DNA of 64,000 nucleotides from Halapricum desulfuricans (GTDB lineage: Archaea > Halobacteriota > Halobacteria > Halobacteriales > Haloarculaceae). The stretch lies in NCBI RefSeq assembly GCF_017094525.1, contig NZ_CP064788.1:310001-374000 (forward strand), in the 5' to 3' direction. The notes beneath the pieces were generated by a model. That model worked only from the letters and a program-made list of their open reading frames with translations, was not told the origin of the DNA and searched no databases. The translations under genes were made by a program, and so were the position numbers. Below, one piece after another: positions 16,898-29,305 of the stretch. Position 1 is the stretch's first letter, and the number at the start of each line of letters is the position of its first letter.

Positions 16898-18358
16898 TCA
16901 GGTCAGTGTCGACCTGAGCGACCCGAGGTCGATCACGTCGGTCAGGGCCACCAACACCAGCCAGACCGCGCCACCGATACAGACTACACCGAACAGCAAC
17001 GGGATCGTCGTCGCAAAGCTGACCAGTGGATACACCACGGTCGACATTCCGGCCGTGATGGCAGCGATGACGAGCGTCGACCGGGCGAGTTTACCCTTGT
17101 CGAGGGGCAGCTCGCCGGAGATGATGTACAGTTCCGTGCCGACATAGATGCTGTCGGTGATCACGGTGGCCACGGCCGCGCCGACGACCCCGAACATCGG
17201 AATGAAGATCAGGTTGAGCACGAAGTTCGCCATCGCGAGGGTTCCCTTGGCGATCGCGCGCTCCCGGGCGCGTCCGAGGTAGTCAAGCGCGTCGCTCGTG
17301 ATCGAGTTCAGCGCCCGGACCACCACGAACAGGCTGAATATCTGGAGGACCGGTACGGCACCCGCGTAGTCAGATCCGAAGATCAGATTGATAGTCGGGT
17401 CGGCAACGAGGACCACGCCCGCAGCGGCCGGCGCGTACAGCGCCACGATATAGGTGAACGACCGCTCGTAGAGGGAGGCTGCGCGGTTCAGTTCGTCCTT
17501 TGCCTTTTGCTCGCCGAAGGTCGGCGAGATTCCGAACCCCAGCGAGTGTGCGGGCGCGATCAGGAATTCGGTGAGCTGTTTGCCCAGCGTGTAGAACGCG
17601 ATGGCCGTCGAACCACGGAACATGCCAAGCAGGATAGTGTCGATACGGCTGTTGAGTACGCCCGCACCCATCGTGAACGTGAGCGGGACGCTGTAGCGAA
17701 GCACGCGTTTGGAGATCGCTGAGGTGACCGTCCCCCTGATGGAGTCCGCTTCGTAGAAGTAGACGTAGATGATCGCCGTCGCGACGACTGCCGCGACCCC
17801 CGAACTGATTACGTATCCTACCATCGCGCCCTCCAGGCCGAATCCGAGGATCAGCAGCCCCGGAACAGCGATGATCAGCAGGAGGTTCGAGAGGATTGTT
17901 GTCGCGGCGTTGAGATCCATCCGATTGAACCCCTGAAAGAACATTGCGGCCACGCCGCCGAGGGCCTTCAGAGCGATATACGCGACGCCGATCAACAGCA
18001 GCGGGCCGATCGCCGGGTCACCGACAAACGCGGCGATCCGCCTGTGAATGACCGCGAGAACGGTACAGACGACGGTAGTTGCGACCACGGTGTAGAAATA
18101 CGTACTCCGGATAATGTCGGGCACCAGCTCGGGCTCTTTCTTGCGGTACTCCGCCGCGTACTTGGCACCGGATTTGTTTAGGCCGAGACTGGCGAACATC
18201 AACACGAATCCAAGTACTGCGAGGGTGAGAAACAGCTGGCCGTACTCGTTGGGGGTGAGCAAGTAGCGGGTCAGAATGAGGATCAACCCACCCTTGGCGA
18301 CCATCCGGAAGACCTGTGAAATAAAGACGAACGACACGCCCCGACCGACTTTTCCCAT
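16898..18358 (-). CDS. Flippase, MOP superfamily (Wzx-like)
   Basis: A 486-residue multi-pass protein of about 12-14 helices, typical of polysaccharide flippases that move lipid-linked oligosaccharides across the membrane. The N-terminal GRGVSFVFISQVFRMVAKGG, the LTPNEYGQLFL segment and the EFLIAPAHSLGFGISPTF segment near residue 260 are family-like. It probably exports the product of the glycan genes around it. No RNA or promoter signal was distinguished upstream. Confidence 0.92.
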   Translation of the reverse strand: MGKVGRGVSFVFISQVFRMVAKGGLILILTRYLLTPNEYGQLFLTLAVLGFVLMFASLGLNKSGAKYAAEYRKKEPELVPDIIRSTYFYTVVATTVVCTVLAVIHRRIAAFVGDPAIGPLLLIGVAYIALKALGGVAAMFFQGFNRMDLNAATTILSNLLLIIAVPGLLILGFGLEGAMVGYVISSGVAAVVATAIIYVYFYEADSIRGTVTSAISKRVLRYSVPLTFTMGAGVLNSRIDTILLGMFRGSTAIAFYTLGKQLTEFLIAPAHSLGFGISPTFGEQKAKDELNRAASLYERSFTYIVALYAPAAAGVVLVADPTINLIFGSDYAGAVPVLQIFSLFVVVRALNSITSDALDYLGRARERAIAKGTLAMANFVLNLIFIPMFGVVGAAVATVITDSIYVGTELYIISGELPLDKGKLARSTLVIAAITAGMSTVVYPLVSFATTIPLLFGVVCIGGAVWLVLVALTDVIDLGSLRSTLT

Positions 18359-18754
18359 TAGTTGTAGCCGGGTGATCCCCGCTCATTGTTATGCCGAGAC
18401 TACGGTACTGTGGTGTGTTCTGGCACCGTTTACATCACCCACAACCTCGAGCAATACTGTCACAGCTCGGGACAGTCCATCAGGATTGATAGTCACTGTT
18501 TTATAGGCTGAGCAGGCCGAGTGCCTCGGGGTCGTACGGAAATCGGTAGATTTCCGTGATGAGCGTTGGACAAAGTCCAACGAACCTGCGAGCGGGCTGA
18601 ACCCGCGAGCAGATGACGAGAGACGAAGTCTCTCGAACCACTTGACCCCGAGGCGGTTCACGCACGACGGGTCACGCTCGATATCCATTACTATCCGAAT
18701 CCCACCGATTAGGCAGGACAATACTATGCCCTGAAGAACTGATAACTATAGACG
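18359..18754. other. Intergenic region with multi-hairpin element
   Basis: These 396 bp lie between the divergent flippase and GT61 genes. Besides the structured element at 18523-18654 there is AT-rich sequence around 18480-18510 and 18720-18750 that could hold promoters. No reading frame is convincing. Confidence 0.5.
18523..18654. ncRNA. Multi-branched hairpin element (candidate structured RNA or IS relic)
   Basis: A perfect 11-bp outer stem (GCCTCGGGGTC / GACCCCGAGGC) encloses four hairpins: 18538-18555 (7 bp, loop GGTA), 18565-18581 (7 bp, loop AAA), 18592-18606 (5 bp, loop CTGAA) and 18617-18635 (8 bp, loop GAA). The whole folds as a four-armed junction. It shares the phrase GCGAGCAGAT with the hairpin array at 28836-29147 (GTGAGCAGAT there). 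The strand transcribed, if any, is unknown. Confidence 0.5.
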
Positions 18755-20029
18755 ATGGCAACTCGTTTGTGGCAGTTATTAGGGGACGCAGGCGCAGTCT
18801 ATCGCCGCGGTGGACATACAGCGCTGACACGCGGCGCATTCAGATACGGTCGACAGCGCCTGCCGGTCGAACTGTGGCCGGAGCTGTTGCTAGATCCGAT
18901 CGGAGCGGCCGACAGACGGATCCCGGTCCAGGAGACGCCTGATATCCAGTTGGCTTACGAGGGAAACTATCGGGAATCGCTTCCACGACCGCTGAAAGCG
19001 GCCGAGGGTCGGACACTCGGCGCTGAAGGGGCTGTCTACCGCTACGATGACGCCGATGTCGTGGGCCGACGGCCGATTGTCGGCGTCGACGGGCGGTACT
19101 TCCCCCCGTCGTGGCTCGGCGTCGAGACTGCGTTTTTCCTCCATCAGGAGAAGTACCTGAAGCGCAATCTGCCGCTCACGTGGTCGCTTCGGACACTCCT
19201 GGGATCGGGGCCGGATCGCGCGATCGATACCGGATTCTTGCTCTTGGGCGAGCGCAGCCTCGAGTTCCCGGCCTGGCACCACGAAGTCCTGCCGAAACTC
19301 CAGTTTCTGGAAGCGTACGAGGAGCAGACGGGCGAATCCCCGACGCTTATCGTGAACGCCGATCTCGGCCAGTTTCACGAACAGTCACTCCGGTTGATGG
19401 GGTATGACCCCGACTCGTGGGTCGACCCCGGAGACGGTGCGATTCGCGTGCGGAAGTTGCTCGTCGCTCCACACCCACGCCGCGCGCGGGGCACGCACCT
19501 TCACACGACGGCGCTGGACTGGGTCGGTGAACGCATTCGATCGAACCTCCCCGACAGGAGCGACGACTTCTCCAAGCGGGTGTACGTCTCCCGGCGGGAC
19601 GCAGAGAGGCGACGCGTCCGGAACGAAACGGAGGTCGTAGACGCGCTCCGTGACCGGGGGTTCGAGTGGTACGAACCCGGCCGCCTCGACTACGAGGAGG
19701 AGATTGCCCTCTTTTCGGGTGCCGATCTCATCGTCGGCGCGCACGGGATGGGGCTCGCAAGCATGTTCCACGCGAGCGACGCGGCGCTCGTCGAACTGTT
19801 CCCTCGTGGCGGGGCGACGGAACATTACTTTCTCACGGCCGCTGAACGCGGCTTCGCCTACGAGTTTCTCTCCTGTGATTCGATCGAAGAGGGGGGGAAC
19901 GTGCGCGCCAGAGATCGAGACTTTGTCGTCGACACCGACGAACTACTGTCTCGTATCAAACGCGTCGAATCCGCAGTGGAGACTCACTCCGACGGTGAGA
20001 CCGACGTCCAGAGCGAGACGGTCCGATAG
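18755..20029 (+). CDS. Glycosyltransferase family 61 protein
   Basis: A 424-residue GT61-like (DUF563) glycosyltransferase. Recognisable parts are a central LEFPAWHHEVLPKLQFL, the RVYVSRRDAERRRVRNE block near residues 272-288 and the C-terminal FSGADLIVGAHGMGLASMFHA near 326-346. It has no signal peptide or membrane helix. It presumably adds a residue to the surface glycan in the cytoplasm. Its last 46 bases overlap the 3' end of the convergent DUF1616 gene. Confidence 0.88.
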   Translation: MATRLWQLLGDAGAVYRRGGHTALTRGAFRYGRQRLPVELWPELLLDPIGAADRRIPVQETPDIQLAYEGNYRESLPRPLKAAEGRTLGAEGAVYRYDDADVVGRRPIVGVDGRYFPPSWLGVETAFFLHQEKYLKRNLPLTWSLRTLLGSGPDRAIDTGFLLLGERSLEFPAWHHEVLPKLQFLEAYEEQTGESPTLIVNADLGQFHEQSLRLMGYDPDSWVDPGDGAIRVRKLLVAPHPRRARGTHLHTTALDWVGERIRSNLPDRSDDFSKRVYVSRRDAERRRVRNETEVVDALRDRGFEWYEPGRLDYEEEIALFSGADLIVGAHGMGLASMFHASDAALVELFPRGGATEHYFLTAAERGFAYEFLSCDSIEEGGNVRARDRDFVVDTDELLSRIKRVESAVETHSDGETDVQSETVR

Positions 20030-28526: not shown

Positions 28527-29305
28527 CGGAACCTACCCTAGGGATGTACTTAATAATAAACCAGCTATACGTGCGATATCTGCGAGCGGTTTGAACGTTC
28601 ACGCTTCCGCCGAGGCTTCATACAGTGAAAAAGCACGATCAGTCGGCCAGTTCGTATTGATTCCGCATCGGTCGAGCGAAGAGTGCAAGATGCACTCTCT
28701 GAGGGGCCGTAGAAAGATCATTTCCAGACGCCATACATAGACCAATACTGCTACTGCCTGATTCCAGAGGGCAAAATTCTGTTCAACCCCCTTTCACCTA
28801 ATTCGAGGCGGAGACCCCACCCTCAATGAGTCGTTCGAGAAGCGAAGATTCTCGTAATCCCGAAAATCGAAGATTTCTGGTGGGCGAACGAGACGCTCTG
28901 CGTCTCGTCAACGTCGGCAAAACGCGGACGACGGAGGCGCACCCGTAGACGTGCGCTTGAATAGCGAGGGATCGGAGATCCCTCGGACCATGCGAACGGC
29001 GAAGCCGTGAGCAGATCGCGGGATGTTGAACGTGAGTGGGGAGTACGTCCCCCCTGCCTCTGCTGAGGCATAGAACGGGAGTCCACGCGAAAGCCCTCCC
29101 CTCAACGAGCGAGCGGGGCGATTGCCCCCGAGCGAAGTAGGGGAGGGTAGTTTACTCGTGCCTTCACTCTATATTCATCACGACAGCCGGAACCCATCAC
29201 TGATTAAGGGTTTCAACAAGGCCAGAGCTCCCGATTTTCGCGATTACGAGAGGGCGTCACTCGAACGACGCCTTGAGAGAGGGGGGACTTAGCGCCTGCA
29301 ACCAA
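28527..29305. other. Long non-coding region with hairpin arrays
   Basis: This 779-bp stretch contains no convincing gene. A 7-bp hairpin at 28681-28697 (GAGTGCA-AGA-TGCACTC) and the TnpB-type relic at 28801-29150 occupy it. A GGCGTC/GACGCC hairpin at 29253-29272 lies near the end of the small minus-strand gene. Confidence 0.55.
28801..29150 (+). mobile_element. Decayed IS200/IS605-type relic with hairpin array
   Basis: Non-coding remnant whose right part resembles the region after haloarchaeal tnpB genes: GGGGAGTACGT, a GCCTC/GAGGC hairpin, the phrase GAACGGGAGTCCACGCGAAAGCCC, then a long terminal hairpin at 29094-29147 closed by CCCTCCCCT/AGGGGAGGG. Before it lies a run of hairpins at 28836-28854, 28864-28876, 28888-28908, 28937-28956, 28965-28985 and 28996-29008. 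No transposase or TnpB coding part is left. Confidence 0.6.

Follow-up and report, generated by a model that had tools for sequence, protein, structure and literature searches.

A four-armed hairpin segment of Halapricum desulfuricans DNA is likely a small mobile repeat nested in an IS200/IS605-type element

RESULTS

The locus and its fold

The stretch of Halapricum desulfuricans DNA analysed here, referred to as the window, is 64,000 nucleotides long. An earlier note on this DNA had located a four-armed segment in the gap separating a flippase gene from a GT61 gene, and domain matches confirmed both neighbours (Table 1). The two genes are directed away from the DNA that separates them, which puts the element described below between divergent genes.

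The four-armed fold was present at 18523-18654, with a perfect 11-bp outer stem (GCCTCGGGGTC/GACCCCGAGGC) that encloses the four arms. The plus strand had a minimum free energy of -79.1 kcal/mol relative to a shuffle mean of -40.3 (SD, 3.5; z, -11.2), and none of 200 dinucleotide shuffles reached the energy of the native sequence. The minus strand folded nearly equally well (-76.9 kcal/mol; z, -10.4). The inner stems had been given as 7, 7, 5, and 8 bp, which proved inexact; the computed arms were 10, 8, 4+5, and 8 bp. A mechanically called 110-amino-acid open reading frame (18389-18721, minus strand) overlaps the segment. However, homology among the copies ends at the edges of the repeat, so this frame does not account for the feature and the original view that no ORF explains it stood.

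Table 1. Features between and including the flippase and GT61 genes (window coordinates)
Feature	Position	Strand	Comment
Polysaccharide flippase	16898-18358	-	PF01943, 1.1e-28
Target-like sequence TTTAT at the left flank	18500-18504	+	Conservation at background beyond it (40 copies)
Putative terminal-only PATE-like element	18505-18661	+	Left start fused to right end; starts AGGC, ends TTCAC
Left-end start AGGCTGAGCAGGCCGAGT (AGGC..GAGT)	18505-18522	+	Resembles left end upstream of tnpB in L044 and copies elsewhere
PATE palindrome, 5' arm GCCTCGGGG	18523-18531	+	Supplies 9 of the 11 outer-stem bp
Putative inner small mobile repeat, four-hairpin, SMR-like	18532-18640	+	109 bp; starts TCGTACGG, ends CTCGAACCA; at G^C
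Hairpin 1 of inner repeat	18535-18558	+	10 bp, 18535-18544 with 18549-18558; loop GGTA; covariation helix 2
Hairpin 2 of inner repeat	18564-18582	+	8 bp, 18564-18571 with 18575-18582; loop AAA; covariation helix 3
Hairpin 3 of inner repeat	18586-18612	+	4+5 bp, 18586-18589 with 18609-18612 and 18592-18596 with 18602-18606; extra CTGC/GCAG stem; covariation helix 4
Hairpin 4 of inner repeat	18617-18635	+	8 bp, 18617-18624 with 18628-18635; C-GAA-G triloop; covariation helix 5
Palindrome loop remainder and 3' arm CTTGACCCCGAGGC	18641-18654	+	From fold and repeat-less counterparts
Right-end terminus GGTTCAC	18655-18661	+	NNTTCAC also in most copies and downstream of tnpB at L064/L044 and L065/L045
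Glyco_transf_61	18755-20029	+	Domain match, 6.2e-22

The outer element has the ends of IS605-type elements

When 40 copies from 13 genomes were aligned, similarity extended over 18500-18661 and was lost abruptly on both sides, where the flanks were unrelated. Conservation was about 0.75-0.95 within 18505-18661 and 0.37-0.5 just beyond. In other copies, the pentamer at the left flank (TTTAT here) was TCTAC, TTTAC, TGTAC, or a like sequence; if IS200/IS605 is taken as the guide, it would lie outside the element. No target duplication was seen by eye around the outer element in the 40 copies. The element is 157 bp long with the inner repeat and 48 bp without it, and it is too short for a transposase gene and carries none.

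The near-terminal palindrome and the ends are of the kind that adjoin tnpB in the same genome (L044/L045). Specifically, among loci with a plausible tnpB frame, one tnpB gene (L044/L064) had a like left end before it and a like right end after it, with a two-hairpin insert in each, and another tnpB locus (L045/L065) had a like right end with the two-hairpin form there. To judge from these matches, the present copy joins a left-end start to a right-end terminus around a single palindrome. Thus, the earlier idea of a relic related to IS200/IS605 held for the outer part, whose ends are those of same-genome IS605/IS1341 tnpB elements, fused.

Counterparts of the palindrome that lacked the repeat (L043, L052, L054, and L179) read GCCTCGGGG-CTTGA-CCCCGAGGC or near it, and they share start or end sequences of the same kind as 18505-18661. 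For the window copy itself, the flanks had no DNA-level match in the genus that could serve as a vacated site. Two other copies in the same genome likewise gave no clean empty site; the adjoining DNA was conserved but rearranged. Beside one PATE copy, a stretch of about 903 bp (L041, 2600-3502) is present at five places in the same genome (G000:C1) with 100% identity and appears to be a recently active insertion sequence.

The inner repeat is built from a two-hairpin unit

Comparison of occupied and repeat-less palindromes put the insertion point at GGGG^CTTGA, which delimits the 109-bp inner module and means that two of the 11 outer-stem base pairs are supplied by the insert. A model of the two-hairpin form, R1, matched the module twice in tandem, at 18533-18587 (2.8e-9) and 18589-18640 (4.2e-7). 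In the same genome, L039 with two hairpins and L043 with four occupy the same kind of host palindrome and have the same outer hairpins, the difference between them being an interior segment of about 52 bases. We therefore read the four-hairpin form as a dimer: the basic unit would be two hairpins of 52-60 bp, and the window copy would be the dimeric 109-bp form. The number of arms varied among copies.

The two hairpins of the unit are in inverted arrangement, and the unit has a short, imperfect terminal inverted repeat of about 8 bp, TCGTTCGA/TCGAACCA, with the variant pair TCGTTCGA/TCGGACGA. This terminal repeat is weaker in the window copy, which starts TCGTACGG. A half-unit pattern search of the sampled loci for an autonomous parent returned 100 and 63 half-matches; those judged by eye, among the 40 and 60 listed, were for the most part coincidental hits in coding sequence or reversed full units, and nothing was convincing.

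Insertion rule and hosts

Across the sites at which flanking bases could be measured, the inner repeat was preceded by G in 105 of 112 and followed by C in 108 of 112. Joined-flank queries were built for 81 of the 123 sites, the other 42 having no clear start or lying too near the end of a locus, and at least 29 of the 81 matched a repeat-less site; no target duplication was seen. These comparisons showed that the repeat inserts at a G^C step and does not duplicate its target.

The hosts were PATE palindromes, long Halorubrum-type palindromes (whose arms reach 21-26 bp in the best examples), tnpB 3' regions, and the tnpB coding sequence. A rough scan for inverted repeats, in which boundaries were imprecise and only the tail is informative, found repeats of at least 13 bp at 18 of 117 sites versus 5 of 585 controls. 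Eighteen of the 123 sites lay within 300 bp of a tnpB match, compared with 5% of random positions. Because so few sites were near tnpB, most hosts were taken to be tnpB-less palindromes, with descent from IS605 assumed.

In the case of L119 (2546-2604), the repeat breaks the zinc-finger region of tnpB and brings two in-frame stops, so this tnpB was apparently inactivated by the repeat. At L185 (3064-3125), a 63-base insert lies within the tnpB coding sequence and the frame stays open. The tnpB frame of L207 is also open through the insert, yet the insert length is not divisible by three. In-frame hairpin repeats in tnpB are reminiscent of the in-frame palindromic elements of Rickettsia. The genome of the window also has two copies of a sequence-divergent relative in tnpB coding sequence, without a stop (L235 and L236; G000:C1:416461 and 501141).

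Range and copy number

A 148-base query found full or partial copies at many places in the 2.89-Mb genome of the window. With a 181-base query, every one of the 146 family genomes gave a match at a lax threshold of E ≤ 1, often a weak one, and 31 matches, including the window copy, had E ≤ 1e-32. Within the order, model R1 at E ≤ 1e-4 matched 125 of 146 genomes (114 of the 122 good ones) and 50 of the 56 sampled genera. Of 196 genomes sampled across the phylum (R1, E ≤ 0.01), 36 matched, and 33 of these were within the order; the three outside it were marginal (E, 0.003-0.007). The genome of the window had 27 R1 matches at about 18 places, both strands being counted, since one copy may score on both strands in such per-genome counts. 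A pattern scan of named genomes found at least 120 stretches, and the 80 titles listed were haloarchaea or archaeal metagenome-assembled genomes of haloarchaeal kind. Twenty-one plasmid records matched, those named being haloarchaeal, and no phage record matched the repeat.

In one genome believed to be Haloquadratum (G243), roughly a dozen places were matched by R1. The 11 places examined (L302-L322) carried the short two-hairpin form, nearly all at CACAGG^CGTTGATT or similar. Given this nearly constant host position, the unit seems to have multiplied there together with its host element.

The two layers evolved independently

Inner modules were more alike within genomes than between them (identity, 0.895 versus 0.790; 0 of 2,000 permutations), whereas the outer ends were not (0.744 within versus 0.748 between; 1,235 of 2,000 permutations). 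Since the inner module is homogenised inside genomes and the outer ends are not, it follows that the module spreads or is converted within genomes across hosts. The inner module of the window had an identity of 0.89 to modules of other genera versus 0.75-0.82 to three copies in its own genome. Its closeness to other genera suggested that the window copy was acquired by transfer, which would fit its location among surface-polysaccharide genes.

Likeness to elements of Haloquadratum walsbyi

Small mobile repeats (SMRs) were reported in 2011 in one haloarchaeon, Haloquadratum walsbyi, and their mobilisation was called enigmatic (PMC3119063). The comparisons in this section are with the parts of that paper that describe these repeats and the palindrome-associated transposable elements (PATEs) of H. 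walsbyi. Like a PATE, the outer element has no transposase gene, a near-terminal palindrome common to IS605-type elements, a conserved terminal oligonucleotide, and no target duplication, and it carries an inserted small repeat. A 52-bp "terminal-only" form is described for the PATE HqIRS46, similar in length to the 48 bp found here without the inner repeat. The outer element differs in genus and in sequence family, and its likeness to HqIRS46 is one of description, not of sequence (PMC3119063).

The inner repeat resembles SMR-A of H. walsbyi in length (109 bp here, about 110 bp there), in the lack of target duplication and of a transposase, in its targets, which are palindromes close to the ends of PATEs and IS605-type elements, and in having an enigmatic mover. 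This likeness is also by description and not by the sequences of HqIRS42, HqIRS43, and HqIRS55. SMR-A has prominent inverted terminal repeats, whereas those of the inner repeat are short, about 8 bp, and imperfect. Unlike SMR-A, the inner repeat has a two-hairpin monomer of 52-60 bp as its common form, is spread through the whole order, and is also found within tnpB coding sequence (PMC3119063). In the literature searched, which included few subscription papers, only PMC3119063, in the parts used here, described anything close to the repeat family.

With IS200/IS605 elements of the IS1341 type, as they appear in the part of PMC12558985 drawn on here, the window copy shares end palindromes and terminal motifs. 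In contrast to them, it is without tnpA, tnpB, and the omega-RNA scaffold (PMC12558985).

We consider it likely that the outer layer is a terminal-only, PATE-like element of IS200/IS605 type and that the inner layer is a small mobile repeat built from hairpins. The feature is real and largely explained: it is of the PATE and small-mobile-repeat kind known from Haloquadratum, and here it is order-wide. The family has been followed through 50 of the 56 sampled genera in its fold, its insertion rule, its monomer and dimer forms, and its hosts.

Mobilisation of the two layers

A Y1 (HUH) TnpA acting in trans would move the outer element in single-stranded form, recognising its palindrome and joining the element beside a T-rich pentanucleotide. 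The inner repeat may enter hairpin loops that are exposed in single-stranded DNA, either during replication or in the single-stranded phase of IS605 transposition. At this locus, the palindrome was probably extruded in single-stranded DNA when the repeat entered its loop at G^C, which would have converted a 9-bp hairpin into an 11-bp stem that closes four arms. Such an insertion would usually disable the host element.

The genome of the window has two Y1 TnpA genes, each lying no more than about 1-1.5 kb from a tnpB match. No PF01797 (Y1 TnpA) match was found in 13 of 33 repeat-carrying genomes. These 13 carriers averaged at least 12.2 R1 matches per genome, and the 20 carriers with a Y1 TnpA averaged at least 9.3. 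TnpA is therefore unconvincing as the mover of the inner repeat because more than a third of the carriers do without it and have as many matches.

Bacterial REPIN/REP sequences with RAYT transposases combine a two-hairpin architecture with high copy number. The inner repeat shares both properties, along with the two inverted hairpins and the short terminal inverted repeat, and its two-hairpin unit could be an analogue of a REPIN moved by a Y1 transposase. We regard this as unlikely because no matching dedicated transposase was found, 13 of the 33 carriers had no PF01797 match, copy numbers were independent of PF01797, and neither of the Y1 genes in the genome of the window is solitary. The insertion rule also differs, being a G^C step in IS605-type palindromes and not a fixed tetranucleotide.

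Another explanation is that the inner hairpins are not mobile and that they arise or are exchanged within palindromes through slippage during replication and through gene conversion. These processes could yield dimers, the GNA and TNC loops described below, and homogenisation within genomes. However, the two-hairpin unit occurs in unrelated palindromes and in tnpB coding sequence, and repeat-less counterparts exist, so we think it improbable that slippage and conversion produced the inner hairpins.

With respect to the mobile repeat itself, we tentatively propose something broader, which we hold to be possible and somewhat short of probable. The inner unit may stand at the root of a class of DNA parasites, present across the order, that have no transposase and settle in hairpin loops at G^C. 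Such parasites would exploit IS605-type elements above all, whether at the end palindromes, in the omega-RNA region, or even within the tnpB coding sequence. They would also form dimers and would spread by a host-dependent or single-stranded-DNA-dependent route without a Y1 transposase. A defined substrate is now at hand for testing what moves small mobile repeats.

Folding as DNA or as RNA

Covariation was analysed in two alignments, A1 (60 of 122 referenced units) and A2 (38 of 40 fetched copies, L256 and L272 being left out). A1 was 99.0% paired, with 158 cells changed on both sides, and A2 was 94.2% paired, with 94 such cells; none of 500 shuffles matched either result. The invariance of the most conserved A1 columns proves nothing, since the search pattern itself fixes those columns. 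Homologues with conserved pairing, which the earlier note had proposed looking for, thus exist, although such pairing equally fits the DNA hairpins of a mobile element.

Selection on an RNA would tolerate C-to-T changes, which leave G-U pairs, but not G-to-A changes, which leave A-C mismatches, so near-equal counts of the two speak for DNA. The A2 mismatches were 35 G.T versus 32 A.C (15:15 in the outer stem and 20:17 in the inner arms), one column that was T-G nearly throughout being left out of the count. Similar results were observed with A1 (5 G.T versus 4 A.C). In contrast, the acceptor stems of haloarchaeal tRNAs from the same loci, a small control of 19 tRNAs, had 9 G.T and 0 A.C. A less curated set of 121 units, from which 2 of the 123 sites were dropped as short upstream, duplicate, or hairpin-less, gave 20 G.T versus 10 A.C, a mild excess on the displayed strand.

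The loops were also informative. Among 155 unique hairpins, 131 could form a triloop and 128 of these were closed by C-G. The C-G-closed triloops included 48 GNA and 37 TNC loops (85 of 128), TNC being GNA on the opposite strand. C-GNA-G is an unusually stable loop in DNA. Together, the near-equal mismatches and the C-GNA-G-type loops favoured folding as DNA, on either strand.

The segment could also be a piece of omega-RNA, the TnpB guide RNA, from an IS605/IS1341 right end, with the RNA still working in trans. The right-end palindrome and the TTCAC end do resemble those downstream of tnpB, the two-hairpin repeat of L044/L045 is located where the 3' part of an omega-RNA is expected, and haloarchaeal omega-RNAs are expressed, according to the part of PMC12558985 used here. 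What precedes the palindrome, however, is the left-end start and not a tnpB 3' region, so the scaffold is missing, and the mismatch symmetry also argues against an RNA; we judge this reading very unlikely.

It could be argued from the very stable fold, the strong covariation, and a TATA-like TTTTATAG at 18499-18506 that the DNA separating the flippase and GT61 genes encodes a structured non-coding RNA or a cis-regulatory RNA. We hold this to be highly improbable, given that Rfam covariance models had no match to the region even at E ≤ 1, that the segment is multi-copy with unrelated flanks, that other copies have TCTACAG or TTTACAG in place of the TATA-like box, that G.T and A.C mismatches occur in near-equal numbers against 9:0 in tRNA, that the two strands fold with similar stability, and that the number of arms varies. 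The structured RNA proposed originally was accordingly not borne out, as there was no Rfam match, no conserved promoter-like box, no clear G-U preference, and the triloops were of a DNA-stable type on either strand. Two narrower candidates were judged by eye: a box C/D-like reading of GTGATGA was considered and set aside, and an archaeal bulge-helix-bulge intron was rejected because the junctions are opposed 3-nucleotide stretches and not offset bulges.

The four-armed segment is quite probably DNA, consisting of two nested non-autonomous mobile elements, and most likely no RNA gene. The analysis showed that the elements are nested and sharply bounded, that counterpart sites without the repeat exist, that the layers are homogenised independently, that the hairpins covary, and that an RNA-type wobble bias is absent. 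Deep covariation alone is no proof of RNA: the pairing here is excellent, and the mismatch pattern is DNA-like.

A second composite in the window

Another multi-hairpin composite lies at 28800-29150 of the window, with R1 matches at 28831-28883 (minus strand) and 28932-28990 (plus strand). This region folds into many small hairpins and has a terminal palindrome, CCCTCCCCTCAACGAG..GTAGGGGAGGG, of a kind known from other host sites. It is probably another IS605 remnant invaded by the repeat.
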